Shown here: positions 1,939 through 15,230 of the stretch, piece after piece
Numbering within the stretch: the stretch's first letter is position 1
How the letters are laid out: each line of letters opens with the position of its first letter
Assembly (NCBI GenBank): GCA_009936885.1
Contig: JAACDT010000162.1
Span: 1 to 15,230 of the forward strand
Direction: 5' to 3'
DNA from: Alphaproteobacteria bacterium
GTDB taxonomy: Bacteria; Pseudomonadota; Alphaproteobacteria; Puniceispirillales; Puniceispirillaceae
DNA length: 15,230 nt
Position numbers and translations under genes: made by a program
Notes under the pieces: model-generated
Seen by the model: only the letters and a program-made list of their open reading frames with translations
Databases searched by the model: none
What the model was told of the DNA's origin: nothing

Positions 1939-3897
1939 CTAGGTTGCGAGTTCTGGACGATCTTTGAATTGCTCGAGTGCTTCGGGGTTTGATAATGCTT
2001 CAGTGTTTTTAACTGCTCGCCCATGAACAATATCGCGCACAGCAAGTTCTGTAATTTTGCCAGACCGTGTGCGCGGAATATCTGTAACTGCGCAAATAAC
2101 AGCCGGAACATGGCGCGGGCTTGCATCCTTGCGAATGGCCGTTCGTAAACGCTGTTGTAGATCATCGGACAGAACGCTTCCTTGTTTGAGCCGGACAAAT
2201 AAAACGATGCGAACGTCATTATCAGCGCTCTGACCAATAACAAGTGCTTCTATAATTTCATCAAAGGCTTCAACAATCCGGTAAATTTCAGCTGTCCCGA
2301 TACGGACGCCGCCCGGATTCAAGGTGGCATCCGACCGTCCATGGATAATAATCCCGCCGCGTTGGGTAAGTGTGCCCCAGTCACCATGCCGCCAGATATT
2401 TTCATACATATCGAAGTAAGCTGCATGATAGCGACTACCATCATCATCTTTCCAGAACCCAACAGGCATTGACGGGAACGGTGTTAGACAACACAACTCG
2501 CCTTGCTCTCCTGCAACCACTTTGCCGTCATCATCAAGGATGGCAACATCCATTCCAAGTCCACGCACCTGAATTTCGCCAGCGTAGACAGGCAAAACAG
2601 GGCAGCCCAAAACAAAACAGGCCATTAGGTCAGTACCGCCTGAAATAGAGGAAAGATGGATATCTGATTTGATGCACTCATAAACAAAATCAAAGCCTTC
2701 TTCTGAAAGCGGCGAGCCTGTTGAACATAATGTCCGTAATGCGGATAAGTCGGCAATGTTAGCAGGAATGACGCCTTCTTTGCGAACGGCATCCAGATAT
2801 TTAGCTGATGTGCCGAACAGAGACAGTTTTTCTGTCTCCGCCATTTCCCAGAGCCGTTCCGGGCCGGGATAAAATGGGCTGCCTTCATACACAATAGCTG
2901 TTGCCCCTGCCATCAGGCAGGAAACAAGCCAATTCCACATCATCCAGCCACAGGTTGAAAAATAAAAGACTCTATCACCCTGCCTGATATCAGCATGCAG
3001 TCGGTGTTCTTTAACATGTTGGCTGATTGTTCCGCCAACCGAATGCACAATGCATTTTGGCGCACCTGTCGTGCCGGATGAATATAGAATAAAGAGCGGA
3101 TCATTGAATCCGACCCGCACAAAGCTCTCAAGCGGCGCATGGTTCAAGGCCTCTGAGAAGATAGAGGCCGCAGTAATCATCGATATATCTTGATAATCAT
3201 CAAGGTATAAATCAATCAACACAGCTTCAACAGTGGGCAAGGCTTCTACAAGTTGGGCGACAACCTCGCGCTTATCGATTGTTTTACCATTATAATTATA
3301 CCCATTTATCGAGATAAGAATTTTAGGCTCGATTTGGCCAAACCGGTCTGTAACACCGGTAATACCAAAATCAGGAGAACAACTGGAAAAAATAGCTCCA
3401 AGACTAGCGGTTGCTAGCATCGCAATAAGCGCGACTTCACTATTGGGCACATAGCCTGCGACCCTGTCACCTTTAACGACGCCACGCGCCTGCATCCATC
3501 CAGCAAGGCGTAGCACCTTATCACGCAAATCTGGCCGTGACAGCTCAGTGCGGCGACCATCTTCACCATGAGCAATAAGACCTGGAATATCGCGCAGCGT
3601 ATCATCAAAGCTTAGCATATTTTCAGCATAGTTTAGGGTCGCATCAGGGAAAAATTTAGTGCCAGGCATCTTACCTGGATTTTCTATTATTCTTGTGCCT
3701 TTATCCCCAATGATGCCATGCCAGTCCCATAATGCTGACCAGAAATCCTCTGGCTTGATTACAGACCATTCCCAGAGCTTGTGATAATCATCTTCCCAGT
3801 TAAAACCAGATTCTGATGCAACGGTTCGCGCAAATTGTGACAGTTGCGTATCCACAGTTCCAGTTGGCGACCATAGCAATCGTGCTGAGCTAGACAT
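1939..3897 (-). CDS. aacS: Acetoacetyl-CoA synthetase (acetoacetate--CoA ligase)
   Basis: The 652-residue protein has full family length. It activates acetoacetate with ATP and CoA through an acyl-adenylate, in the cytoplasm, linking ketone-body or polyhydroxybutyrate-derived acetoacetate to acetoacetyl-CoA. The N-terminal ACS-type region shows LWEWSVIKPEDFW and MPGTKFFPDATLNYAENML (residues about 41-95). The adenylate-forming P-loop is YSSGTTGAPK (272-281), followed by YFSTCGWMMWNW (312-323). The hinge region is GRSDATLNPGG (520-530), and the catalytic lysine is in RSGK (Lys614). The conserved N-terminal LLWSP and total length separate it from acetyl-CoA synthetase. The start has GAGG at a proper distance (ACGAGGTTCGATATG). 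It lies in the same direction as the catabolic cluster but 278 bases away, and its base composition matches the left part. It converges on the 184-aa gene with 5 bases between stops. Confidence 0.94.
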   Translation of the reverse strand: MSSSARLLWSPTGTVDTQLSQFARTVASESGFNWEDDYHKLWEWSVIKPEDFWSALWDWHGIIGDKGTRIIENPGKMPGTKFFPDATLNYAENMLSFDDTLRDIPGLIAHGEDGRRTELSRPDLRDKVLRLAGWMQARGVVKGDRVAGYVPNSEVALIAMLATASLGAIFSSCSPDFGITGVTDRFGQIEPKILISINGYNYNGKTIDKREVVAQLVEALPTVEAVLIDLYLDDYQDISMITAASIFSEALNHAPLESFVRVGFNDPLFILYSSGTTGAPKCIVHSVGGTISQHVKEHRLHADIRQGDRVFYFSTCGWMMWNWLVSCLMAGATAIVYEGSPFYPGPERLWEMAETEKLSLFGTSAKYLDAVRKEGVIPANIADLSALRTLCSTGSPLSEEGFDFVYECIKSDIHLSSISGGTDLMACFVLGCPVLPVYAGEIQVRGLGMDVAILDDDGKVVAGEQGELCCLTPFPSMPVGFWKDDDGSRYHAAYFDMYENIWRHGDWGTLTQRGGIIIHGRSDATLNPGGVRIGTAEIYRIVEAFDEIIEALVIGQSADNDVRIVLFVRLKQGSVLSDDLQQRLRTAIRKDASPRHVPAVICAVTDIPRTRSGKITELAVRDIVHGRAVKNTEALSNPEALEQFKDRPELAT

Positions 3898-4175: not shown

Positions 4176-5201
4176 CTACATTGCATCATAGCATTGTCTA
4201 AAGGTGGCATCATTAGGGCTTAAAACAGCACCGTTTCTACCGTAGCAATGATGCGCCATCCAAGGAAAAGCGGTTTCATCAGCTATTTTTGAGATTTCTT
4301 TAAGATAGGGTAGTCCATCAGAAGCAAGACCATCAATGATTTGTTGCCAATTTGGATATGCCAAAAAAGCATCTTGCCAAATTGCCCGACCCGCTAAGAA
4401 ACCTGACGCTCCTGCTTTAAATGCGTGCAAAAGGATATCACGGAAGGAGTTTTTTTCAGCGCCAGCTGACAACATCACCCAAGGTCTTCCTGCGAGTCTA
4501 CCCATCTCGTCAAAGAGTTGCTGAACCTTATCTGAGCCATCAACCATGTTGGCATTTACGGGACTTTCTAATTTAAATAAGTCAACGCCATACTCAGGCT
4601 TTGCAAATTCTTCAACAGAAGCCAATACAAGGTCGCTGTCCTTCTCTTTCATTTCAATGTAGCCGTGTGATCCAGATAACTCACTGCGCAAAGGATATAA
4701 AAGTAATTCAAGCAGGAACGGGATATCAAAACGGGCACATTCTGCACCAACTCTTCTCACATAATCTTTTTGAAAAGCGATGTTTTCGGGTGAGGCATCT
4801 GGTCTATACCAAGCAAGTACTTTAACTGCATCTCCACCAAGCCGTTTAATTTTACTGACTGTCCAGTGATCAATGTTGTTTGAAAAGCGGCCTGCATTGC
4901 TTTCCCTGAATATTGAATCTTCAAGCGTCACTACCAAACCTTTATCTCTGGCCAACTCGTCGAACGCTGCAGGTATACCAAAATGTGGATCTAATAAAAT
5001 AGCTGAGCTTGGTCCCTGCAATTGCCTCACAATTTGTAATTTAAACTTAGCAACTTCATCCCATGGAGCCTCCGGCAGGCCAAAATGTTTAGCAATCGGT
5101 TCTTTGATAGGTGGGCGCTGGTCAGCTGCCACCATTTTGAAAAGGCCTTTTTTGTCTGCTAGACGGCGCATGCCGAGCAGCTTTCCAGGTGATAAATGCA
5201 T
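4176..5201 (-). CDS. LacD/YihT-type class I aldolase
   Basis: The 341-residue cytoplasmic enzyme is counted from ATG at 5201. A longer frame to 5264 would run through the kinase stop region, while GGAGG at 5211-5215 sits 9 bases before this ATG. The landmarks follow the Schiff-base aldolases LacD (tagatose-1,6-bisphosphate) and YihT (6-deoxy-6-sulfofructose-1-phosphate): AADQRPP (25-31), ILLDPHFG (68-75), VKVLAWYRPD (126-135), DLFKLESPV (207-215) with Lys210 as the expected Schiff-base lysine, PWVMLSAG (240-247) and GASGFLAGRAIW (264-275). The same fold occurs as the DUF2090 domain fused to some IolC kinases. It should split a phosphorylated keto-sugar into a triose phosphate plus a second C3 or other fragment. 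About 30 C-terminal residues extend beyond the short family members. It is the last gene of the cluster, one base from the kinase stop. The substrate is unknown. Confidence 0.87.
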   Translation of the reverse strand: MHLSPGKLLGMRRLADKKGLFKMVAADQRPPIKEPIAKHFGLPEAPWDEVAKFKLQIVRQLQGPSSAILLDPHFGIPAAFDELARDKGLVVTLEDSIFRESNAGRFSNNIDHWTVSKIKRLGGDAVKVLAWYRPDASPENIAFQKDYVRRVGAECARFDIPFLLELLLYPLRSELSGSHGYIEMKEKDSDLVLASVEEFAKPEYGVDLFKLESPVNANMVDGSDKVQQLFDEMGRLAGRPWVMLSAGAEKNSFRDILLHAFKAGASGFLAGRAIWQDAFLAYPNWQQIIDGLASDGLPYLKEISKIADETAFPWMAHHCYGRNGAVLSPNDATFRQCYDAM

Positions 5202-5202
5202 A

Positions 5203-6093
5203 TCAATGTTCCTCCATAAAAGTATAACAACTCTGGCGATCAGGAGAAGCTGATATTCCTCCAAATTTTCTGCACTTCATCGCGGCAGCAGCATTAGCAA
5301 CCTTGATAGCAGAACCTTCGCTCATCTCCTCACCTAAACAAAGAGAAAAAATACCGTGCCAGACGTCACCAGCGCCAACAGAATCGACAGTTCTAACAAT
5401 AAATGCTGGGATATTAGTTATCACGTTGTTCTGAAGATACCATACTCCATTTTCCCCGTCGGTCACACAGACCCAACAGCCGGTAACATCTTCTGCCCTT
5501 CGCAAACCTGTCTCGATATCGCAACTTGGAGCAAATGAATCCAATCCTTGTCTTGAAAAAGCTAAGTGAGTTGCTCCATTAGCATGGTTTTCTGTAAATG
5601 GTGCTTCTGCATCAATTATTATTGGTACGTTTCGTTTTTTACCAAACGCTATGGCCCAGTTAGTCAATTCTGGGTGTCGATTATCGGCTAGCACAGCACA
5701 TGGTCTATAGTCAGATTTTAATGTTTCTGACAACTCAGTGAATCCTTTGCCTGGAAAATTGAATGTCTGCCGTTCACCTCCACTATCTACGAATGCTGCA
5801 GACACTGAGGACTGGGTACCTGCTGATAGTAAACTCATTGACATATCTACAGATTCATCAATCAGGCTCTGACGAATAAAATTTCCTATCATATCATCAC
5901 CTAAATAGGTGATGAGTAGAGGCTGTGCCCCAAATCTAGCCATCGCGATGCTCGCATTGGCTCCTGGGCCCCCAACAACAAAGCGGCAATCATTTGCTCT
6001 AAATTTTTCACCACGATCGGAAAAATGGTCAATTTCCATAATTAGATCAACTGTCGCCCGCCCCGCTACTAATATTGATGCCGGCTTATTCAT
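5203..6093 (-). CDS. PfkB-family sugar kinase, YihV-like
   Basis: The 296-residue cytoplasmic kinase has both PfkB signatures: GGPGANASIAMARFGA (41-56), and VDSVGAGDVWHG (236-247) with Asp243 as catalytic base and the GAGD anion hole. From memory, several other stretches resemble 6-deoxy-6-sulfofructose kinase YihV more than fructokinase or KDG kinase: VLADNRHPEL (134-143), THLAFSRQGL (175-184), PAFIVRTVDSVGAGDVWHG, and AAMKCRKFGGISASPD (270-285). This hints at a fructose-1-phosphate-like product from a modified ketose. It overlaps the preceding ThDP gene by 8 bases, and its stop is one base from the aldolase start, so kinase and aldolase are probably made in step and act in sequence. Related PfkB kinases in many alphaproteobacteria are unassigned, so the exact substrate is open. 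Confidence 0.9.
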   Translation of the reverse strand: MNKPASILVAGRATVDLIMEIDHFSDRGEKFRANDCRFVVGGPGANASIAMARFGAQPLLITYLGDDMIGNFIRQSLIDESVDMSMSLLSAGTQSSVSAAFVDSGGERQTFNFPGKGFTELSETLKSDYRPCAVLADNRHPELTNWAIAFGKKRNVPIIIDAEAPFTENHANGATHLAFSRQGLDSFAPSCDIETGLRRAEDVTGCWVCVTDGENGVWYLQNNVITNIPAFIVRTVDSVGAGDVWHGIFSLCLGEEMSEGSAIKVANAAAAMKCRKFGGISASPDRQSCYTFMEEH

Positions 6094-7696
6094 TTGGAAA
6101 ACTTGGCGCGTTCAAGCCATTTATTCGAACATTTATACAGGCTGGCTTTTTACATAAAAAAGCTCGCTGAAAAGCAGCAGAGAGTTCATCAAGATTAGTA
6201 ACATATTCACCATGGCCACCAAGTGCAACGGCTACCTCGTCGTATCGGGCATCAGTTAGCCCACACGCAAACACCCTGTCTGGCCCAAACTGCTGCTCCT
6301 GTATTCTAACTTCAGCATTCCATTTGAGGTCATTGCCTATTACGACTATCACCGGAAGATTTTCACGCACTGCGGTTTCAAACTCAGCGAGATGAAAACC
6401 AATAGTACCATCTCCCATAAAAGCTAAGATATGCTTTTCGGGGTATGCAAGTTTAATAGCCATGGCATAGCTCAAGCTGCCACCAATAGCCCCCGACGTC
6501 CCGTTAATCATAATTAGATAACGGGTTAGAAGAGACTGTACCCATTGACCAATTTCACCACCATCCGAAACAGCAATGACGTCATCGCGAGAAGACAAAA
6601 TTGTATTTACCGTAGAGGCGAAAGTTAAAGAGTTTAGTTCGGCATGGTTTGTCTGGTTTTCTAAAATAGAAAAATCACGGTGGTCAATGGCTCTGCGCAG
6701 CGCGGCAACCCATTTACGGCCACCGGTTCTTTCAGAAGCCAGTTTTTGAAGCATATCAATCGCAGTTAATGGCCCAATATCTTCAGCTTCCTTCAACCTA
6801 TCACCAAGGTTGTTACGCGCTTTCGTCACAAGCTCATGGCTGCCAATGTAAGCAAACCATTCAGCATTTGCATTAAAGGCTTCAACTGACCCATATGAAA
6901 GTGTGAAATCTATCGGTTTTCCAACCACAATTACTAAATCAACAAGGTTAATCATTGATTTAATATTGCCAAGCCTTGGGTCATTAAAGCCCCGGGGGCT
7001 CTCCATCATAACCACAGGCGCATTAAGCTGCGTCTCTAGTTCTTTTAGTTTTTCTGCAAAATGGGTCATCCCAAAGAAGGGACCGACGATAATTAATGGC
7101 TGTTCAGCCGACGCAAATGCCTTAATAAGTCTTGCCGAGGGTTCCTCTACATCTCGAGCACTTTTATAGTTTTGCTTTAAATCAGTAAATGGTTCAGCTA
7201 GTTCAGTGTTTAAGATATCTGCTGCGAGTGCCAGGTGTGTAGGGCCTGGAACACCGTCTTTTGCAAATTTGATAGCTTTTAAAACATTCGGAATGAGATT
7301 TTTTGTCTCGTTAATTCTCTCAGAGTATTTAGTCAGAGCACAGGTTATTTTTACCTGGTCCATTTCCTGAAAACTTCCCTTTCCATCTAATTCTACCTCG
7401 GAATCACCACTAAGCAACAGAACAGGTGTTTGTGATTGAGTTGCTGTAAATAAAGGAGCTATTGCATTACAAAGGCCCGCTCCTGCTGTGACCATCGCAA
7501 CACCAATTCTGCCTGTCATTCTTGCATATGCTTCTGCCATATAAACTGCAGCAGCCTCGTGCCTCACATGTATTATCCTGATATCCTCATCAAGGCAGGC
7601 GTCAAATAGAACCATTATTTGATTTCCTGAGAGGGCAAAAATAGTATCTACCCCCTCAGACTTTAGAATTTTAATTAAAGCGATAGATGCTTTCAT
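6086..7696 (-). CDS. Thiamine-diphosphate-dependent enzyme, acetolactate synthase-like
   Basis: The protein has 536 residues with the three-part layout of the ALS/POX/benzoylformate decarboxylase group. The N-terminal pyrimidine domain has the catalytic Glu47 in VRHEAAAVYMAEAYARMTG. The middle domain runs from about 185 to 320. The C-terminal pyrophosphate domain has the GDG...N motif (GDG at 428-430, Asn454). TAGAGLCNA (70-78) and GSFQEMDQ (107-114) are further family sequences. Such enzymes join, cleave or decarboxylate 2-keto compounds. It is shorter than IolD (a ring-opening hydrolase) and does not look like sulfoacetaldehyde acetyltransferase. No small regulatory ALS subunit gene lies nearby, which argues against branched-chain amino-acid synthesis. 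A 61-base gap separates it from SDR-C upstream, and its stop overlaps the kinase start. A decarboxylase, carboligase or C-C hydrolase role in the pathway is inference. Confidence 0.87.
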   Translation of the reverse strand: MKASIALIKILKSEGVDTIFALSGNQIMVLFDACLDEDIRIIHVRHEAAAVYMAEAYARMTGRIGVAMVTAGAGLCNAIAPLFTATQSQTPVLLLSGDSEVELDGKGSFQEMDQVKITCALTKYSERINETKNLIPNVLKAIKFAKDGVPGPTHLALAADILNTELAEPFTDLKQNYKSARDVEEPSARLIKAFASAEQPLIIVGPFFGMTHFAEKLKELETQLNAPVVMMESPRGFNDPRLGNIKSMINLVDLVIVVGKPIDFTLSYGSVEAFNANAEWFAYIGSHELVTKARNNLGDRLKEAEDIGPLTAIDMLQKLASERTGGRKWVAALRRAIDHRDFSILENQTNHAELNSLTFASTVNTILSSRDDVIAVSDGGEIGQWVQSLLTRYLIMINGTSGAIGGSLSYAMAIKLAYPEKHILAFMGDGTIGFHLAEFETAVRENLPVIVVIGNDLKWNAEVRIQEQQFGPDRVFACGLTDARYDEVAVALGGHGEYVTNLDELSAAFQRAFLCKKPACINVRINGLNAPSFPNE

Positions 7697-7757
7697 AACT
7701 CAAACCCCAAATTTTTATTTAGCCGTTCTGAAAAGGAGAACATAGAGTGCCTCATTG

Positions 7758-8474
7758 TCAGCCAATCGAATATCCTCCATCAACAATAATCGTTTGCCCC
7801 GTTATAAATGCTGCTTGGTCACTAGCTAGAAACATTGCTGGTCCAGCAATATCATCAGGATTCCCCCATCGGGAAAAGGGTGTCCGATCAATGACTGCTT
7901 TATAATGTTCTTGGTCATCACGTCCCTTTTGAGTTTGTTCGGTGACAACAAAGCCTGGTGCAATTGCATTTACCCTTACACCCTTTGGCGCGTATTTTAA
8001 TGCCATTGATTTTGTAAGCTGGTGGATTCCAGCTTTGCTTGCTCCATAGGCAGGTACCTTTGGGCTACCGAAAAAACTATACATAGAAGCAATATTGATT
8101 ACTGTACCCTTCGCACCAATGATTGCTGGCTCAAAAGTCTTTATGACATCAAAATTGCCAATCAGATTGATATCGATAACATGACGGAAAATATCGATGT
8201 CATCTTCATTATCGCGGCGTGAAATCGCGGCACAATTAACCAAAACATCTATTTTGGAAAACTGTTTTGCTAAAGCAGATATTTCAACGGTATTACATAC
8301 ATCAAGCTGGTGATATGTCTCCACTCCATCTGGCATAGATAACGGGGAAGTTTCTGCCCCGGTGATAATTACACGGTCGCCCTGTTTTACTGCTGCTTTT
8401 GCAATCGCAGCACCAATTCCATCTCGGCTTGCTCCAATCACCAGCCATATACGCTTTCTCGTTTTATTTATCAT
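7758..8474 (-). CDS. Short-chain dehydrogenase/reductase (SDR-C)
   Basis: This 238-residue classical SDR has a nucleotide loop GASRDGIG (14-21), where the usual leading Thr is Ile. It also has NCAA (80-83), catalytic Ser130 in INIASMYS, YGASK (143-147), and IAPGFVVTEQ after it. The end, ITGQTIIVDGGYS, is the normal family C-terminus. It resembles the KduD / gluconate 5-dehydrogenase / 3-oxoacyl reductase-like group that oxidises or reduces a secondary hydroxyl in sugar acids and polyols with NAD(P). It lacks the usual acidic residue right after the second strand (IITGAET), so cofactor choice is unclear. Its ATG follows the SDR-B stop codon without a single base between, a sign of tight coupling. 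The substrate is not assigned. Confidence 0.92.
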   Translation of the reverse strand: MINKTRKRIWLVIGASRDGIGAAIAKAAVKQGDRVIITGAETSPLSMPDGVETYHQLDVCNTVEISALAKQFSKIDVLVNCAAISRRDNEDDIDIFRHVIDINLIGNFDVIKTFEPAIIGAKGTVINIASMYSFFGSPKVPAYGASKAGIHQLTKSMALKYAPKGVRVNAIAPGFVVTEQTQKGRDDQEHYKAVIDRTPFSRWGNPDDIAGPAMFLASDQAAFITGQTIIVDGGYSIG

Positions 8475-9224
8475 TTATATCACAAATCCTCCCCCTCCCA
8501 GATTAAGCATGGAGCCACTGGCGTAGTTAAAATTTCCTGAAATTAAATTTATTACTGGAGTTGCGATATCAGAGGTTTCGGCTACTGAACCACAAGCGAT
8601 TGATGCCTCAATTTCTAATCTAGTTTTTGTATCTGTAAGTGCATTTTCAGTCATATCAGTTCTTGTAACGCCCGGACGAACAGAAAATAAAGAAATACCG
8701 TGTGGAGCAAGCTCCTTTGCAGCGCCTATTGTAAAAACGTCCACGGCACCTTTGCTCGCAGCATAAACAGTTTTATGCATTCTGCCGCCAATGGTTGCGG
8801 CCATAGATGACAAATTAACAATGATGCCCGGTCTGCCAATATCCATCGCTTGCTTTGCAAATTCCTGACAACACAGGATGAGGCCTACTACATTGACTTT
8901 CATTGTGGACATAACAAACTCATAGTCGACTTCTGTTACAGGCCTTTCTCCGTTATCGATCCCTGCAGCTGTGACAAGAGCATCTGCTGGCCCCATTTCT
9001 TGGACAATCTTTTTGAAGAAATCCGAAATACTTTTGGAGTCGGTAACATCCAAAGGAAAGGCTTTTATTCGACCATTAGAAGCTTTTTCCATGTCAGAAG
9101 CTAATTTCTGGTTTAGACTATAACTTATAGCTACTTTCCAACCATCATCCAACGCCGATAGTGCAATTTGTCTCCCGATTCCTCGGTTTCCTCCAGTAAC
9201 GATTAACAGACGTTCCTTTTTCAT
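8475..9224 (-). CDS. Short-chain dehydrogenase/reductase (SDR-B)
   Basis: This 249-residue classical SDR has TGGNRGIG (10-17), LDVTD (58-62), TAAG (85-88), the catalytic Ser139/140 in VNLSSMAA, Tyr154 and Lys158 in YAASK, and SVRPGVTRTDM. The C-terminus ends in GGGGFVI and lacks the usual 'VDGG' by one residue change (NLGGGG). It is close in style to YgfF- and FabG-like oxidoreductases. The Arg in the glycine-rich loop and Ser residues after the second strand (ISYSLNQ) favour NADPH, so it may work in the reducing direction. It starts in the stop of the large lyase subunit (ATGA overlap, with AAGGA ahead) and its stop touches SDR-C. It is clearly different in sequence from SDR-A and SDR-C, so it is not a recent duplication. 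Confidence 0.92.
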   Translation of the reverse strand: MKKERLLIVTGGNRGIGRQIALSALDDGWKVAISYSLNQKLASDMEKASNGRIKAFPLDVTDSKSISDFFKKIVQEMGPADALVTAAGIDNGERPVTEVDYEFVMSTMKVNVVGLILCCQEFAKQAMDIGRPGIIVNLSSMAATIGGRMHKTVYAASKGAVDVFTIGAAKELAPHGISLFSVRPGVTRTDMTENALTDTKTRLEIEASIACGSVAETSDIATPVINLISGNFNYASGSMLNLGGGGFVI

Positions 9225-10432
9225 AATGCATCCTTTAGCCTAGGTAGAATAAACTGTCCCTCACGAAGTGCTTCTGATGCTGTCTGATGTCCATTAAAAA
9301 CCTTATTGATTATCGAGAGTGTAGCTATTTGAGCAGCACAACGGTCAAGTTTTCCAGTGAAATAATCTTCTAGCTCAACATCTATTTCATCACGCCAAAA
9401 GCGCAAGGTTTCCGGGTTTCCGCAGATTTTTATTATTGGGCAAAGGAGATTGCTTGTTGGGTTAAATACACCCATAGCAAATAAACCAAGATTACAGCCT
9501 GCCATCATCATGCCAGTCAGTGATGTAGGGCTAAAGAAGGGCGTATCCATAAAGTGTAACCCTTGTCCAGAAGGGGACTTCCCAAAACTAAGTGCGGAAG
9601 AAAAATCCGCAGTTCCTGTCTTGCTAACAGCGCCCATAGATTTTTCAATCAAGGTAGTCAGACCACCATCGATGTTCTCCTTAGTAGGGTTTGTACCACG
9701 GTAATCTTTCCCACTATCTTTCATGATAAGCCCAGAACGATAATCAATGAAGTTTAGGATAGCTTGTCTTGTCTCGTGAGATGGGCCCCTGTCGCTAAAA
9801 ATTGTTTCTGCACCAATGAATTCTGATGTCTCAGAAACAATAGCTGATCCGCCACTTTTCACAGTAAGATCCGTAATATCGCCAATAATAGGGTTTGCAC
9901 AAATGCTGCTCGAAACATCGCTACCACCACATTCGAGTGCTAGCGATAGGCCACTTAGATTTACTTCTGAACGGCTCTGTTGTAATTTTTGCTGCTGGTC
10001 GGCTAAAAATTGCATTTTCTCAATTCCATCAGTCACAGCCTGCTTTCGCCCATTGCTGTTCATGAAAGCTAAATATTCTATTGGAATTGTTGCTTGCACC
10101 TCTTTTTTTATCAGCTCTAAGGAAGATGCATCATGCGTAATTACGAGTGCTGCGCCAACATGCGGATGAGCCAGTATACTTGTAATGAAGTCAAAAAGAA
10201 CATCCTCATCAGTTTTTTGTAATCCACGAGAAAAGCCTCCAGAGACACAAATTATGTGTTGGTCACTTGCAGCAATGGTAGATGCAAGCCAGTCAGTTAA
10301 TGCAACTGTAGACAGAACAATAAGATGATTGCGGACACCTATTCTGCCATCAGAACGTTGAAAGCCATACCACCTTAGGCTCTGGGAATAATCAAAAAGC
10401 TCACTATTATTCACAGTTGTGGACATGAACAT
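9221..10432 (-). CDS. UxaA/GarD/SuyB-family (sulfo)lyase, large subunit
   Basis: The protein has 403 residues from ATG at 10432; a start at 10468 would lie deeper inside the small-subunit gene, and AAGGG precedes 10432. It corresponds to the C-terminal catalytic part of altronate/galactarate dehydratases and to SuyB of (2R)-sulfolactate sulfo-lyase. Landmarks are YGFQRSDGRIGVRNHL (22-37), ALECGGSD (165-172), SETSEFIGAE (200-209), NPTKENIDGGLTTLIEKS (248-265), GLHFMDTP (291-298), TGMMMAGC (306-313) and CPIIKICGNP (331-340). Dehydratases of this family use iron and remove water (or sulfite in SuyAB) from a 2-hydroxy acid. The segment that usually reads TGRGTPxGN in altronate/galactarate enzymes, as I recall it, is MGVFNPTSN here (320-328), which suggests an altered substrate. 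It overlaps the small-subunit gene by 26 bases and SDR-B by 4. Confidence 0.9.
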   Translation of the reverse strand: MFMSTTVNNSELFDYSQSLRWYGFQRSDGRIGVRNHLIVLSTVALTDWLASTIAASDQHIICVSGGFSRGLQKTDEDVLFDFITSILAHPHVGAALVITHDASSLELIKKEVQATIPIEYLAFMNSNGRKQAVTDGIEKMQFLADQQQKLQQSRSEVNLSGLSLALECGGSDVSSSICANPIIGDITDLTVKSGGSAIVSETSEFIGAETIFSDRGPSHETRQAILNFIDYRSGLIMKDSGKDYRGTNPTKENIDGGLTTLIEKSMGAVSKTGTADFSSALSFGKSPSGQGLHFMDTPFFSPTSLTGMMMAGCNLGLFAMGVFNPTSNLLCPIIKICGNPETLRFWRDEIDVELEDYFTGKLDRCAAQIATLSIINKVFNGHQTASEALREGQFILPRLKDAL

Positions 10433-10667
10433 GCTCGCCCTTTTCAATGAAACTTGTCGCAACGCCAATTCTCACACCATATTTGATGATAGCGTCCCCC
10501 CTAGCTATAGGAAGCAGACTAATCTTATGACCAAATGGTATGTTACCGTTAATGACCATTCCGTTATCTAAGCACTGGATTTCTGATTTTTCGTCTAATA
10601 GGGTGACTACGTTGTCAGCTGCATCCAACATTAAGAACCGTCGACCTTTTGGACACTCTAGTTGCAT
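10407..10667 (-). CDS. SAF-domain small subunit of the UxaA/GarD/SuyA-type lyase
   Basis: This 86-residue protein is the stand-alone version of the N-terminal domain of UxaA. IPFGHKISLLPIARGD (43-58), IIKYGVRIG (60-68) and the histidine-rich end GEHVHVHN (77-84) are the family marks; His47, His79, His81 and His83 are candidates for metal or substrate contact. It should pair with the large subunit encoded directly downstream to form the active dehydratase or sulfo-lyase. A strong GGAGG (10674-10678) sits 6 bases ahead of the ATG, inside the end of SDR-A, and the two genes overlap by 10 bases. Separate small and large genes are found in SuyAB and in several uncharacterised altronate-dehydratase relatives, whereas E. 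coli UxaA and GarD are single chains. Confidence 0.92.
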   Translation of the reverse strand: MQLECPKGRRFLMLDAADNVVTLLDEKSEIQCLDNGMVINGNIPFGHKISLLPIARGDAIIKYGVRIGVATSFIEKGEHVHVHNCE

Positions 10668-11386
10668 ACAATTCCTCCATCCACATTTATTACCTGACCT
10701 GTGACATATGCTGAGTCGGGGCTAAGTAAAAATTGAATAACGCTTGCAACTTCATCAGGGGTGCCAAGGCGTTTCATAGGAATTTCACCGAGCACGGTTT
10801 CGATCCCGCGTTTAGCAATTATCTTTTGAGGCATTGATGTATCAATGAACCCTGGCGCTACAGCATTTACGAGGATGTTCGGCGCCTCTTTTCTCGATAG
10901 CGAGCGTACCATACCAACCAATGCTCCTTTTGCTGCGCTGTAAGCAGTATGATGTGGAGCTCCCCTGCGAAAGGCTAATGAGCTCACTAGAATTAAACGC
11001 GAAGAAGGTTCCTTTAACATCGCTTTACGCGCTTCTGCATAAAGCATGTAGATGTTACGGATGTTGGCATCCATCACAGGGTCGAAGATATTTTTAACAT
11101 CACCAGGCACCATATTGTCAGGTATAAATATGCCTGCCAAATGAACCAATCCATAAATTCTTGTCTCTTTTTTAAGGAGGGTGGTACAGGTATTCTCGTC
11201 GTCCATGCCAGAGCAATAATAAATAAGTCGACTGGTATCAGTACATGCAGATTTCAAAATATTGGCGCCCTGTGGGTTAATATCTATAGCTATGACACGA
11301 GCACCGAGAGAGAGCAGGCGTTTAACTAATGGAACGCCTATTCCGCCAGAAGCGCCTGTAACAATAATTGTTTTTCCTTCAAACAT
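10658..11386 (-). CDS. Short-chain dehydrogenase/reductase (SDR-A)
   Basis: This 242-residue classical SDR has TGASGGIG (10-17), an acidic Asp35 after the second strand (VIAIDIN) that favours NAD, LAG (83-85), Ser135/136 in LVSSLA, YSAAK (149-153), and VAPGFIDTSM. The end, VTGQVINVDGG, is typical. It is the first enzyme after the terminator-like hairpin and overlaps the SAF subunit gene by 10 bases. NAD preference and the first position would suit an initial oxidation of a hydroxyl on the imported compound, but this is inference. The ribosome site is weak (AGGT about 10 bases ahead), which contrasts with the strong sites of its neighbours. Confidence 0.92.
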   Translation of the reverse strand: MFEGKTIIVTGASGGIGVPLVKRLLSLGARVIAIDINPQGANILKSACTDTSRLIYYCSGMDDENTCTTLLKKETRIYGLVHLAGIFIPDNMVPGDVKNIFDPVMDANIRNIYMLYAEARKAMLKEPSSRLILVSSLAFRRGAPHHTAYSAAKGALVGMVRSLSRKEAPNILVNAVAPGFIDTSMPQKIIAKRGIETVLGEIPMKRLGTPDEVASVIQFLLSPDSAYVTGQVINVDGGIVCN

Positions 11387-11425
11387 TTCACATTACCTGT
11401 AAAAATATGATTTATGACAGTCTGT

Positions 11426-11455
11426 AAAAAAGGGCCTGTGAATTCACAGGCCCTT
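11426..11455 (-). terminator. Rho-independent terminator-like hairpin after the TRAP binding-protein gene
   Basis: Arms AAGGGCCTGTG and CACAGGCCCTT enclose AATT, making a perfect 26-base palindrome at 11430-11455. Read on the minus strand it gives an 11-bp GC-rich stem followed by a run of six T (complement of 11431-11426), the form of an intrinsic terminator. It lies 33 bases after the dctP stop and 43 bases before SDR-A. It should end or reduce transcription after the transporter genes, or protect the 3' end of a shorter, more abundant transporter mRNA. Confidence 0.85.
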
Positions 11456-11488
11456 CAAAAATCAATGATAATGATCATCGGTTAAGAT

Positions 11489-12535
11489 TTAGCGGCCTAT
11501 GACACGATTGTTTCTGTCAGCGAGGTCAGCTTCAGCCTCGGCAACGGCTTTTTCAAATTTCTTAAGCCATTTATCGCCATATTTGTCTGCAAACCAAACT
11601 TTCATTTTATCGCGAGCTGCGACAAAAGTTGCCTTTTCTTCTGGAGATGGAACATATATTTCACCACCAAAGCCAACGAACTCTGCGAGAGCACGGGAAT
11701 CATACTCCTTGTTCCAATCAGACTGAATCATCGAGGCTTGCTGAACACCATCAATAACCAAGTCTTGCAAGTCAGCAGGAAGGCTCTGCAACCATGAGTC
11801 AGACATCCACCAAAAACCAAACAAATAAGCGTGTTCGTCAAGTGTTACATACTTCACAGCTTCATACATTTTTGTTGGAATGATATCTGTAGCTGCATTT
11901 TTTGTGCCCTCTACTACTCCTGTTTGTAGTGAAGTGTAAAGTTCTCCCCAGGCAACCGGTGTGGGATTTCCGCCGAGTGCTTTAATAAACTCAATCTGCA
12001 ATGGTGAGTTGATGGTTCTCATCTTCACACCTTTCATATCCGCAGCTGATTTTATAAGTTTTTTCGTGGTAAAGAAATTACGCCAACGGCCTGTGTTACC
12101 AACAGCTACAAGACGTACATTACCTGTCGCCTTTAGAATTTCATCACGCACTTCATCAAAGAAAGAGCTTTGCGCGATGTGCTCCGCAATTGAGTCGCCA
12201 TTCATCATATAGGGAATGTCCGTAACCTGTAATTCAGGCCAGAAATTGGCTATTCCACCAACCGTAGTATGAGTTAACTCGAGTGTATTAAGTTGCACCT
12301 GCTCAATCATATCGCGGAAGTTACCAAGTTGGGCTCCAGGATAAATTTCGACAGTTATGCGGCCATTAGACCTAGCTTCTAAAAAGGACTTTAAAAACTC
12401 TCCAGGAACTTGGTCGTCAGATGTTACTGGACCCACATGGCCATACTTTATTGTATATTCAGCAGCAAAAGAAGCCGCTGGTAAGCATATAGCCAAAAGG
12501 GACGCTATTATTGTCTTGCGAAATAATACTTTCAT
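11489..12535 (-). CDS. dctP: TRAP transporter solute-binding protein, DctP family
   Basis: The protein has 348 residues from ATG at 12535, where AGGAGGA (12547-12541) is 5 bases away; a longer frame from 12583 has no such site and would bury the signal peptide. Residues 1-24 form a Sec signal (FRKTIIASLLAICLPAASFA, cut before AEYTIKYG). The mature part has the DctP order: IYPGAQLG (64-71), a helix region with TDIPYM, GRWRNFF (149-155), and DMKGVKMRT (167-174) with Arg173 at the place of the conserved arginine that binds the ligand carboxylate. GELYTSLQTGVVEG (197-210) follows. It is a periplasmic protein that captures an organic acid and hands it to the membrane subunits encoded upstream. Its position before a strong hairpin fits higher expression than that of the enzymes. 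The ligand is unknown. Confidence 0.95.
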   Translation of the reverse strand: MKVLFRKTIIASLLAICLPAASFAAEYTIKYGHVGPVTSDDQVPGEFLKSFLEARSNGRITVEIYPGAQLGNFRDMIEQVQLNTLELTHTTVGGIANFWPELQVTDIPYMMNGDSIAEHIAQSSFFDEVRDEILKATGNVRLVAVGNTGRWRNFFTTKKLIKSAADMKGVKMRTINSPLQIEFIKALGGNPTPVAWGELYTSLQTGVVEGTKNAATDIIPTKMYEAVKYVTLDEHAYLFGFWWMSDSWLQSLPADLQDLVIDGVQQASMIQSDWNKEYDSRALAEFVGFGGEIYVPSPEEKATFVAARDKMKVWFADKYGDKWLKKFEKAVAEAEADLADRNNRVIGR

Positions 12536-12540
12536 AGCTT

Positions 12541-12547
12541 TCCTCCT
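12541..12547 (-). promoter_or_regulatory. Strong ribosome binding site of dctP
   Basis: AGGAGGA on the minus strand, 5 bases before ATG at 12535, is nearly the full anti-16S sequence. It settles the start, and suits a binding protein needed in large amounts. Confidence 0.8.
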
Positions 12548-12622
12548 AATTTTTACACTGTAGAAGAAAATGATTGCACTCAAATCGTGTTTTGTAAACG
12601 AGTTTGACCATAAAAGCTGTTC

Positions 12623-13909
12623 TTATCCATAACCAAGCAATCTTGGCACTGTCATTGAGACCGCTGGAAAGTAGGTCACCAAAACTATGATAGCGATATG
12701 AACGATGTAGAATGGCAACATTTCTGATACTACAGATTCGATACGTTCACGGCTTACTGCTGATGCAACAAAAAGAATTAGTCCCATTGGCGGAGTTGCA
12801 AGTCCGATTGTTAAGTTAACACACATAATAATAGCGAAATGCAACGGGTCTACACCCACAGCAAGCGCAGTTGGTGTGAGAATTGGTCCCAAAATCAGAA
12901 TTGCGGGGCCAGCGTCAAGAAACATGCCAATGACTATGAGGATCAGGTTAATCATCAGCAATACTGTGTATTTATTATCAGTATATTCAAACAGAAATGC
13001 TGTTAAAAGTTTAGGTACACCTGACAGCGTTGCAATCCAAGCAAAAACAGTTGCCATCCCAACCGCCATCAGGATTACACTTGATGATATAGCTGTCCGA
13101 AAAAGCATATTCTTGACCCTTGTAAGCGGCAGGCTTTTCATGAACAAACACAAAATAATCGCGTAAACTACCGCAGCTCCTGCAGCTTCCGTGGGAGTAA
13201 AAACCCCCGAAAGTATGCCGCCTATTATAATAAATGGAGTGAGTAATGGCCAAAATGCATTAAGCCCTGCTTTTGCAGCGACACGGATTCCCGGAAACCT
13301 ATCAGCAACCGGGTATTCGCGGCGCCGCGCAATTATGGACACCATTGTCATTAAGCCAACACCGGTAAGCAACCCTGGCACGACCCCTGCGAGAAACAAT
13401 GCGGCAACAGATATCTCCATTATGTACGCATAAACGATCATAATTATGCTTGGCGGAATGATTGGCCCAATAACCGATGAGGCCGCTGTTACTGCAGCTG
13501 AAAATTTTCTAGAATAGCCTTGTTTTTCCATTGCTGGAATCAACATCGAACCTAATGCGGAAGTGTCTGCCACAGCAGAACCACTTACACCTGCGAAGAA
13601 AATTGATGAAACGACATTAACATGAGCAAGACCACCTCTCAAATGGCCAACAAGGACTCTGGCGAAATATACTAAACGTTCTGTAATGCCTCCAACATTC
13701 ATAATTTCCCCAGCGAGGATAAACATGGGAATAGCAAGCAACGGAAATTGATTGATACCTATGTAAAGCTTTTGAGCGATGATAGCCAAGAAGAATTCTT
13801 TGTCGGCTATTATCAATCCTATCATTGGCGCGGCTCCTAGAGCGAAAACAATCGGCATGCCAACGGATATCAAGACAAGCATTATCCATATAAATGTTAC
13901 AGGTATCAT
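12623..13909 (-). CDS. dctM: TRAP transporter large permease subunit, DctM family
   Basis: The 428-residue inner-membrane protein has about twelve hydrophobic segments and matches the usual DctM length. Clear family marks are PLLAIPMFILAGEIMN (56-71), GVSGSAVADTSALGSMLIP (107-125), AASSVIGPIIPPSI (142-155), and in the second half FTPTEAAGAAVVYA and NLTIGLATPPMGLILF. The repeated 'PP' loops are the two halves of the sodium/substrate site. It carries solute across the membrane together with the small subunit, driven by a sodium gradient. GGAGGG stands 6 bases ahead of the ATG. It is 38 bases after dctQ and 87 bases before dctP. Confidence 0.95.
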   Translation of the reverse strand: MIPVTFIWIMLVLISVGMPIVFALGAAPMIGLIIADKEFFLAIIAQKLYIGINQFPLLAIPMFILAGEIMNVGGITERLVYFARVLVGHLRGGLAHVNVVSSIFFAGVSGSAVADTSALGSMLIPAMEKQGYSRKFSAAVTAASSVIGPIIPPSIIMIVYAYIMEISVAALFLAGVVPGLLTGVGLMTMVSIIARRREYPVADRFPGIRVAAKAGLNAFWPLLTPFIIIGGILSGVFTPTEAAGAAVVYAIILCLFMKSLPLTRVKNMLFRTAISSSVILMAVGMATVFAWIATLSGVPKLLTAFLFEYTDNKYTVLLMINLILIVIGMFLDAGPAILILGPILTPTALAVGVDPLHFAIIMCVNLTIGLATPPMGLILFVASAVSRERIESVVSEMLPFYIVHIAIIVLVTYFPAVSMTVPRLLGYG

Positions 13910-13947
13910 CTTAAGCCCTCCAAAATGGAACTATGATATGAACATAT

Positions 13948-14502
13948 TTAAAATTCTTCTAAAATTGGACGATGTTTAGTAACAAACTCATCCTTTTTTA
14001 TTGGGGTTGCGCTGAAAAGATCTGCTGCATCCTCCAAGAATTGCTGCAGAGACACAAGAGCCATACTGGCCATTCCCAAGGGGATGGAAACGAAAAACCA
14101 GTACCTTGATATATCCCCAACCGAGATAGCTACCTGCGTCCTTCCATTCCAAGCAAAATCGTGACTTTTTAATGCCAAGAAAGCACAAAAAATGAAGACG
14201 GATAAATGCGTGATAGTAAGAATTATTTGAGTGATTTTTTTGGGAAATTTAGAGATGATAATTTCGATATTTGGGTGCACACCCAACCGAAGTGCAATGG
14301 GAGAACCCAAAAAAACTAACCACAACATGGCGTATTTAGCTAATTCTTCTGACCAAGATAAACTATCATTCAGGACATAGCGAAAAAATACGCTGGCGGA
14401 AACAATTACAGCAATAGAAAGCACTAGGAACATTGCTCCCCAACGGAATGCACTTAACTGCACCATATTGATAACTGACAAAAATCTGATTAGTAAATTC
14501 AT
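13948..14502 (-). CDS. dctQ: TRAP transporter small permease subunit, DctQ family
   Basis: The 184-residue inner-membrane protein has four hydrophobic segments at about 21-40, 56-72, 90-111 and 133-152. The motif NDSLSWSEELAKYAMLWLVFLG after the first helix is the usual DctQ signature (SW-EE-). It pairs with DctM to form the permease. The C-terminal tail of about 25 residues is polar and a little longer than in many homologues. GAGGGAGA precedes the ATG closely. It lies 32 bases after the enolase-superfamily gene, so both are probably on one transcript. Confidence 0.94.
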   Translation of the reverse strand: MNLLIRFLSVINMVQLSAFRWGAMFLVLSIAVIVSASVFFRYVLNDSLSWSEELAKYAMLWLVFLGSPIALRLGVHPNIEIIISKFPKKITQIILTITHLSVFIFCAFLALKSHDFAWNGRTQVAISVGDISRYWFFVSIPLGMASMALVSLQQFLEDAADLFSATPIKKDEFVTKHRPILEEF

Positions 14503-14534
14503 GTCTCCCTCACTCTTGCTTTTTTACACTTAAA

Positions 14535-15230
14535 TTACTCTGAAATTATTCTCACTTCTACATTTTGTGACTTCAATGCTGACAAATCTGGCACTACACC
14601 TAGGCCGTGTCCTTCCGGTAATTTGATTTTTCCGTCGCTTGACGGACTGAAATCCCAATCCGAAAGGTTTTCTCGGATAGGGTTTTCGTTTACATCCACC
14701 TCTAATAGACCCGTATTACCCGCAATCGTCAATAAATGGGCAGAGGACGCTAGCCCAATAGCACCCCCCAACCAATGTGGACAGTAAATGCTGTTCTGCA
14801 GTGAGGTACCAAGATGAGTATCTAAAATACGAATAAGCCCAGTAAAACCGCCTATTTTCCCAATATCTGGTTGCATGCAACGAAAGACACCATTTTGCAG
14901 ATAGGCATTTACTGTTTCCAAATCACCAAGATTTTCTCCACCGGCTATTGGCACGTCAATATTTTTTTTAAGCGCGCGCCAATCCGATAATGAGGAGTTC
15001 GCACGAATTGGTTCTTCAGCCCACTTCAGATTAAATCTGCTCAATACATTTATATTTCTTGCTGCGTCAGTTGGCAAAACCCAGGCTTGATTTGCATCAA
15101 TCATTAGTTGGTGAGCGTCACCAATCAATTCACGGGCTTTACTCAATCCCATTTGGTCAACTTCTGAGCCGAAGCCAACCTTTATTTTGAAAGAGGAAAA
15201 TCCATGGTCGAGTGCACTAGAGACTACTTC
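14535..15230 (-). CDS. Enolase-superfamily enzyme, mandelate racemase subgroup (N-terminal part outside window)
   Basis: The frame is open to the window edge: 231 residues are visible, with the N-terminal capping domain missing. An internal ATG at 15152 is not the start, since the conserved KIK motif lies upstream of it. The visible barrel contains KIKVG (residues 15-19 of the visible part, catalytic Lys), IDANQAW (Asp45, metal), WAEEPI (Glu72, metal), AGGEN (Glu99, metal), MQPDIGKIGG (Asp122, His-Asp pair), and CPHWLGG (His151, general base). A Lys and His on opposite faces with three metal ligands define the mandelate racemase/acid-sugar dehydratase subgroup. The member LEVDVNENPIRE near the C-terminus also fits. 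It abstracts the alpha-proton of a carboxylate, for dehydration or epimerisation of a sugar acid. Together with the TRAP genes it points to an acidic substrate. Confidence 0.9.
   Translation of the reverse strand, partial: EVVSSALDHGFSSFKIKVGFGSEVDQMGLSKARELIGDAHQLMIDANQAWVLPTDAARNINVLSRFNLKWAEEPIRANSSLSDWRALKKNIDVPIAGGENLGDLETVNAYLQNGVFRCMQPDIGKIGGFTGLIRILDTHLGTSLQNSIYCPHWLGGAIGLASSAHLLTIAGNTGLLEVDVNENPIRENLSDWDFSPSSDGKIKLPEGHGLGVVPDLSALKSQNVEVRIISE

Follow-up and report, generated by a model that had tools for sequence, protein, structure and literature searches.

Which compound is degraded by an operon in which a sulfofructose kinase-like protein and a class I aldolase are combined with dehydratases of acid-sugar families? 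The question is raised by contig JAACDT010000162.1 of the alphaproteobacterial assembly GCA_009936885.1 (Puniceispirillaceae). This contig was analyzed at its full length of 15,230 nucleotides (the window) and belongs to a draft genome of 1.86 Mb in 339 contigs, which is about 80% complete. Twelve genes on the minus strand, in the order ENO, DctQ, DctM, DctP, SDR1, UXA, UXB, SDR2, SDR3, TPP, KIN, and ALD, encode an enolase-superfamily enzyme (ENO), a tripartite ATP-independent periplasmic (TRAP) transporter, three short-chain dehydrogenases (SDR1 to SDR3), a split UxaA-family lyase (UXA and UXB, together UXAB), a thiamine diphosphate (ThDP) enzyme (TPP), a PfkB kinase (KIN), and an aldolase (ALD). 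The spacing between neighbors ranges from a 20-base overlap (UXA/UXB) to a gap of 102 bases (DctP/SDR1), and four adjacent pairs overlap. In the reading that we favor, with a probability of about 0.5, this is a catabolic operon fed by its TRAP transporter, and its substrate is an acidic sugar or sugar acid that is probably sulfonated but is not plain sulfoquinovose. A sulfonated substrate is preferred on account of the kinase, of the aldolases most similar to ALD, and of a genome that appears able to finish the degradation.

KIN (5203..6093) has sulfofructose kinase YihV as its best match among proteins of solved structure (113 bits; next best 94), in agreement with the initial annotation, which had described it as YihV-like. 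In an alignment with Escherichia coli YihV, the residues K27, N109, and R138 are all kept in KIN, as in 11 of the 13 kinases aligned, KIN included; the kinase of genome G467 lacks N109 and that of Devosia lacks both N109 and R138. These three positions we take to be the sulfonate-binding residues of YihV, although a literature search gave no confirmation. KIN is thus addressed here as a putative YihV-like, sulfofructose-type kinase. ALD (4176..5201; 341 amino acids) is assigned to class I by its conserved lysine and exceeds the cut-off of subfamily NF009498 (328 versus 184 bits). Among solved structures, ALD is closest to 8tnf (299 bits), followed at a distance by LacD-type chains (123-142 bits) and by YihT (62-63 bits), so that the proposal of a YihT-like aldolase in the initial annotation had to be given up. 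An assignment as LacD-type tagatose-bisphosphate aldolase was likewise rejected, since ALD reaches 141 bits with the TIGR01232 equivalog model at a cut-off of 432. ALD is therefore described as an aldolase of the LacD/8tnf branch. The positions of YihT K193 and R253 are conserved in ALD, and YihT R130 is also shared, whereas LacD has an aspartate there; because the lysine position is kept, the function of ALD may still match that of YihT.

Proteins matching ALD at E≤1e-60 occur in 10 among 385 genomes of the class. The nearest aldolases outside the window group, from genomes G355, G157, and G251, are 63-65% identical and form one clade with that group (99/100 support; the trees of both ALD and KIN carry long-branch warnings). 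They are encoded in sister clusters with genes for a TRAP transporter, a MauG-like protein, KIN, ALD, an SftI/SqvD-like isomerase, a Gfo/Idh-family protein, a mutarotase, an aldehyde dehydrogenase resembling succinate semialdehyde dehydrogenase (SSADH-like), and a phosphoglycerate dehydrogenase-like protein, which is presumably SlcC. In G157, both subunits of sulfopyruvate decarboxylase follow directly after the cluster, each above its cut-off (160 versus 148 and 231 versus 221.5 bits). According to published accounts, hybrid clusters of the sulfoglycolytic Embden-Meyerhof-Parnas (sulfo-EMP) pathway occur in Proteobacteria (PMC12890257, PMC9594981), 3-sulfolactaldehyde (SLA) dehydrogenases belong to the aldehyde dehydrogenase superfamily (PMC10599462), and the NAD-dependent sulfoquinovosidase SqgA has a Rossmann plus alpha/beta fold resembling inositol 2-dehydrogenase (PMC10755693). 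The last of these fits the Gfo/Idh protein of the sister clusters. From these gene sets taken together with these accounts, the sister aldolases are probably sulfofructose-1-phosphate aldolases, and ALD likely carries out the same chemistry. A sulfosugar was one of the substrates suggested by the initial annotation, and it is to this one that the sister clusters point.

Genes for the subsequent degradation of a C3 sulfonate were found on contig C303 of the same genome (L125, G000:C303, 11879-16384), where HpsP-like, SuyA, SuyB, ComC-like, and SuyZ-like genes are adjacent; the ComC-like gene is a member of the Ldh family that we take to be ComC. The HpsP-like protein shows 39% identity, and SuyB is 66% identical to SuyB of C. 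pinatubonensis and falls inside the SuyB clade (100/99), with UXB outside it. In C. pinatubonensis, SuyB was recognized from the neighboring hpsN and hpsO genes, and HpsP from where it stands in the published cluster hpsRNOUPsuyAB (PMC11382572). This gene set suggests that the organism plausibly converts sulfolactate to pyruvate and sulfite. The operon itself contains no SLA reductase or dehydrogenase; an SSADH-like aldehyde dehydrogenase (51-52% identity) is encoded elsewhere in four of the five window-type genomes, and a YihU-like gene adjoins the operon in G114, G117, and G119.

The window-type genomes are that of the window and G088, G114, G117, and G119, which belong to the same family and to two genera and in which the 12 genes are complete and identically arranged (loci L005, L003, and L004 appear to be the contigs of G088, G114, and G117, and L018 is an additional fragment nearly identical to L003). 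When 136 genomes of the order, which is possibly SAR116-like, were searched for TPP at E≤1e-140, five had it, that of the window included, and it was not found at this limit in nine other listed genomes of the window's genus; UXB at E≤1e-85 was present in two among the 385 genomes of the class, each of which carries the complete cluster. In a comparison with three relatives (L003, L005, and L052), the DctM and DctP proteins are 91-94% and the other operon proteins 56-79% identical, while four-fold degenerate sites agree at 22-47% across all operon genes. Since the proteins are this similar with silent sites near saturation, the operon is old and has been held by selection; the order of its genes, kept in the four other genomes, does not result from chance. 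The gene list and positions of the initial annotation agree with the open frames and family matches obtained here, and the co-conserved catabolic cluster that it had postulated was recovered by the search for conserved order; as a whole, that interpretation is partly supported.

The TRAP transporter consists of the small permease DctQ (13948..14502; PF04290, 107.5 bits), the large permease DctM (12623..13909; PF06808, 386 bits), and the solute-binding protein DctP (11489..12535, 348 amino acids from ATG; PF03480, 213 bits). DctM (91-93% identical in the three relatives) and DctP are far more conserved than the operon enzymes, and DctP keeps 76-78% identity even with a protein of Quisquiliibacterium encoded next to UXAB and SDR2. 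A recent horizontal transfer of the transporter genes was rejected, since in the three relatives their four-fold sites agree at just 28-39%, within the range of all genes. The best solved match of DctP is an isethionate-binding DctP (142 bits), which is not diagnostic of the ligand because the next best reaches 134 bits. Between DctP and SDR1 a terminator-like hairpin, a 12-pair GC-rich stem-loop with a T run (11426..11455, minus strand), is located at the equivalent position in all five operons folded; a simple terminator scan, whose count was near chance (12 versus 9.1), did not list it. Because this hairpin separates them, the genes for transport and those for the enzymes may differ in their level of expression.

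ENO (14535..15230; PF13378 (MR_MLE_C), 145 bits), whose 5' end is cut off by the contig end, is of the mandelate racemase type and contains the motifs KxK, DxN, EEP, GGEN, QPD, and CPH, which we take to be the catalytic set of the mandelate racemase group. Its full-length relative in G114 has 415 amino acids and 3ddm as best solved match (292 bits). UXA (10407..10667; 86 amino acids) has no Pfam match, matches TIGR03248 at positions 4-75 (41 bits), and aligns with residues 2-80 of E. coli UxaA. UXB (9221..10426, 401 amino acids from ATG; PF20629, 204 bits; PF04295, 51 bits) is 27% identical to C. pinatubonensis SuyB, 25% to UxaA, and 23% to GarD, and forms its own clade. UXAB resembles the (2R)-sulfolactate sulfo-lyase SuyAB in being a split, two-subunit UxaA-family enzyme; it was rejected as SuyAB by identity, by its signature ECGGSD, which is that of UxaA dehydratases and not the KCGESD of SuyB, and by its position outside the SuyB clade (support 100/99), and the genome has a separate SuyAB. 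Orthology to UxaA or GarD was also dismissed given the low identities, the separate clade, and a score far below the GarD cut-off. SDR1 (10658..11386; PF13561, 145 bits), SDR2 (8475..9224; PF00106, 153 bits), and SDR3 (7758..8474; PF13561, 184 bits) are short-chain dehydrogenases, the last being KduD/glucose dehydrogenase-like with scores below the cut-offs of these families (TIGR01832, 171 bits, cut-off 339). TPP (6086..7696; PF02776, PF02775, PF00205) is an enzyme of the acetolactate synthase/benzaldehyde lyase type and is part of a large group for which we know of no assigned function; its best solved match is benzaldehyde lyase (198 bits) and its best NCBIfam match PRK05858 (283 bits, cut-off 587).

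It is conceivable that a hexuronate, aldonate, or cyclitol acid is degraded, that KIN phosphorylates a ketose ending in a carboxylate (5-deoxyfructuronate/fructuronate type, as in inositol catabolism), and that ALD releases dihydroxyacetone phosphate (DHAP) and malonate or tartronate semialdehyde. The UXB signature fits this, as does a sub-threshold match of ALD to DUF2090, and ENO of G119 and UXB score best with the talarate/galactarate and galactarate dehydratase models, both far under the cut-offs (113 versus 500 and 115 versus 731 bits). We nevertheless regard a carboxylate as unlikely, since the sister clusters speak for sulfonates, the score of KIN with the IolC model is far too low (71 bits, cut-off 300), and the YihU-like protein is closer to YihU than to GarR (36.5% versus 29% identity in G119). 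The route of myo-inositol (IolG-E-D-C-J) comprises an oxidation, an elimination, a ThDP-dependent step, a kinase, and an aldolase that forms DHAP. The comparison with this route made in the initial annotation holds as an analogy of chemistry, in which the order of reactions is similar, and does not extend to homology with the Iol enzymes: no Iol model was reached among the matches shown, an IolD model is missing from the top 25 of the 54 NCBIfam matches for TPP, no IolE-type protein is among the family matches of the operon, and the operon dehydratases belong to acid-sugar families.

Relatives of UXAB without KIN or ALD occur in Burkholderiales and Roseobacters, which suggests another possibility, namely two pathways in one operon, where UXAB-ENO and KIN-ALD would serve two halves of one compound or two substrates delivered by one transporter. 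Outside the window's own cluster, 39 UXB loci were collected, 22 of them annotated; among these 22, a GMC enzyme is present in 19, an ENO-like protein in 13, a choline-sulfatase-like protein in 5, and KIN or ALD in none, and neither of the latter two was seen at any of the 39, many of which are on short contigs. Ten genomes with such loci, a set without a positive control, were searched for ALD (E≤1e-25) and TPP (E≤1e-100), and neither was matched in any of the ten; UXAB is absent from the sister KIN-ALD clusters. The fixed order across both parts in five genomes, with overlapping neighbors, makes a mere juxtaposition of two pathways rather improbable. The Burkholderiales/Roseobacter clusters share with the operon the split UxaA clade and an enolase-type enzyme, and with the relatives of the window the GMC and sulfatase families, but they have no such kinase, aldolase, or ThDP enzyme and are served by a Tau/Ssu-like ABC or a TRAP transporter; we know of no function assigned to them. 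One such locus (L026, 2370-3164) contains a ComA-like gene (phosphosulfolactate synthase family, PF02679) near UXB and GMC, with a related gene in L027 (2856-3662). UXB genes of the Burkholderiales kind were also met in draft contigs titled Akkermansia muciniphila (L012) and Bordetella parapertussis (L025), titles that look doubtful; of these two, L012 is among the annotated loci. As to TPP, a relative in G251 (46%) is located on a different contig from ALD, and a TauE/SafE-type exporter lies within 10 kb of a TPP relative in three of four plasmid loci examined (export is the role that we assume for TauE/TSUP- and SuyZ-type proteins). Further TPP relatives (40-44%) at L062, L065, L097, and L099 recur together with genes for an iron-sulfur protein and a succinate-dehydrogenase-like flavoprotein and with split fumarase-like genes, a cluster for which we know of no function.

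The surroundings of the operon in the relatives bring sulfate esters into consideration. Divergent from ENO, genes for a choline-dehydrogenase-like GMC enzyme, a LacI regulator, and a split transketolase are found, followed in G114, G117, and G119, where contigs are long enough, by the YihU-like reductase and an epimerase-like gene. Past ALD, the relatives carry sulfatases, G119 in addition a second LacI gene. In G088, the contig instead goes on with an EamA gene. In the genome of the window no close relative of the GMC enzyme was found (best 40-42%), for which the incompleteness of the draft may be the reason. The compound imported intact could be a sulfated sugar or polyol, processed in the cytosol by sulfatases and further by the GMC dehydrogenase and the dehydratases, with kinase and aldolase acting on a 6-sulfated ketose. 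The sulfatases that flank the operon in G117 and G119, together with a sulfatase piece in G114, would agree with this: the five examined from G117 and G119 have CxPxR motifs and, judged by eye, no signal sequence, and one of G119 exceeds the choline-sulfatase cut-off (578 versus 433 bits). The frequent association of GMC, and the occasional one of sulfatases, with UXAB at the outside loci is also in line with it, as are two of four examined KIN-ALD loci of Rhizobium, Neorhizobium, and Shinella that carry sulfatases and a sulfatase-activating enzyme. Yet the window contig has no sulfatase, the single one of its genome is only weakly similar to those of G117 and G119, and none is present in the examined stretches of the three sister clusters, so that we judge a sulfate ester to be quite unlikely. 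The rhizobial plasmid loci (L056, L058, L106, and L107) comprise a sugar ABC importer, an alcohol dehydrogenase, KIN, ALD (45-47%), an SDR similar to SDR3, and ENO-like and TSUP-type genes, with an aldehyde dehydrogenase in two of the four; in Neorhizobium the ENO-like gene (aligned) and the TSUP-like gene (assumed by position) are annotated as hypothetical. They resemble the operon in KIN, ALD, SDR3, and ENO and differ in the importer, the alcohol and aldehyde dehydrogenases, and the exporter; no UxaA pair and no ThDP enzyme was seen in the four, and we can name no pathway for them. Two further neighbors may be recorded: in the window, an acetoacetate-CoA ligase gene (1939-3897; 911 bits, cut-off 639) lies 278 bases past ALD on the same strand and was set aside as an operon member because of this gap and because it is not beside the cluster in relatives, and in G119 a giant protein is possibly encoded at L067, 470-16999 (G119:C2:375469-391998), where a frame stays open over at least 5510 codons up to the end of the stretch examined.

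Compared with the sulfo-EMP pathway of E. coli, the operon has in common a YihV-like PfkB kinase adjoining a class I aldolase with the residue positions described above, and with the hybrid sulfo-EMP variant using SqvD it is connected through the TRAP-fed sister clusters. It differs in that isomerase, glycosidase, mutarotase, and SLA enzyme are missing, the aldolase is of another branch, and ENO, the split UxaA enzyme, three SDRs, and a ThDP enzyme are added. Because an SqvD-type isomerase and a YihT-type aldolase were looked for and not found, the operon was not filed as a sulfo-EMP member; in its last two steps it would nonetheless work like sulfo-EMP if our reading is right. Several observations weigh against a sulfonated substrate, above all the missing isomerase and glycosidase, the diverged kinase, the acid-sugar dehydratases, and the nearby sulfatases, which suggest a sulfate ester. 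The SqvD-like isomerase was found in three of three sister genomes and in none of the five window-type genomes (one 80% complete; the YihS type was not searched), and in the sister clusters it scores 258 bits, far under the family cut-off of 700. The operon contains no sulfoquinovosidase (genomes beyond the window were not searched) and no aldehyde dehydrogenase. KIN is only 38-43% identical to the sister-cluster kinases and sits on a long stem; having diverged further than ALD from the sister proteins, it may act on a different ketose. The YihV triad is also present in two kinases not adjoining an ALD (Nitratireductor and Pacificitalea), and the YihV-type site of KIN could hold a carboxylate instead. 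The YihU-like protein remains below the YihU cut-off (217 versus 348 bits), and the SuyAB set does not prove a link to the operon, given that free sulfolactate is degraded by SuyAB as well. Among the more distant ALD loci, five (G380, G265, G179, G364, and Devosia) showed none of the compared sulfonate genes, and a glycoside hydrolase of family 31 in the G467 cluster is nearer to YicI than to YihQ (397 versus 143 bits) and was not accepted as a sulfoquinovosidase.

If the substrate is a sulfonated sugar or sugar acid, as we favor, the following route may be proposed, in which the sulfonate, the substrate, what ALD releases, and all reactions that precede KIN are inferred. The TRAP transporter would import the acidic sugar or sugar acid, the SDRs would oxidize or reduce it, and ENO and the split UxaA enzyme would act on carboxylate intermediates by dehydration or epimerization. 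TPP would make or break one carbon-carbon bond to give a sulfofructose-like ketose with a terminal anionic group, KIN would phosphorylate its C1, and ALD would cleave the product via a Schiff-base lysine into DHAP and a C3 aldehyde, probably 3-sulfolactaldehyde. After reduction or oxidation, the C3 sulfonate could be desulfonated by the SuyAB set of contig C303. In its most specific form, which we offer tentatively as a possibility rather than an expectation, this would be a further sulfosugar route, in which acid dehydratases and a ThDP enzyme, replacing the aldose-ketose isomerase, convert an environmental sulfonated sugar acid or cyclitol acid, not sulfoquinovose, to a sulfofructose-like ketose before YihV-type phosphorylation and class I aldol cleavage; in the operon, ENO, UXAB, the SDRs, and TPP stand in place of the sister isomerase.

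Sulfosugars represent a large share of biological organic sulfur. The gene set was not found described in the literature searched on sulfoglycolysis and these gene families, from which subscription papers were mostly out of reach. DctP, KIN, and ALD are targets that can be assayed singly. Aldolases of the LacD branch, which are now annotated as "tagatose 1,6-diphosphate aldolase", become candidate sulfofructose-phosphate aldolases in Proteobacteria. If a sulfofructose-type kinase and aldolase are coupled here to other initial enzymes, this would indicate that a substrate or route is missing from the lists of sulfoglycolytic pathways and would point, if the proposal is true, to a so far unrecognized organosulfur compound in the habitat of these bacteria.

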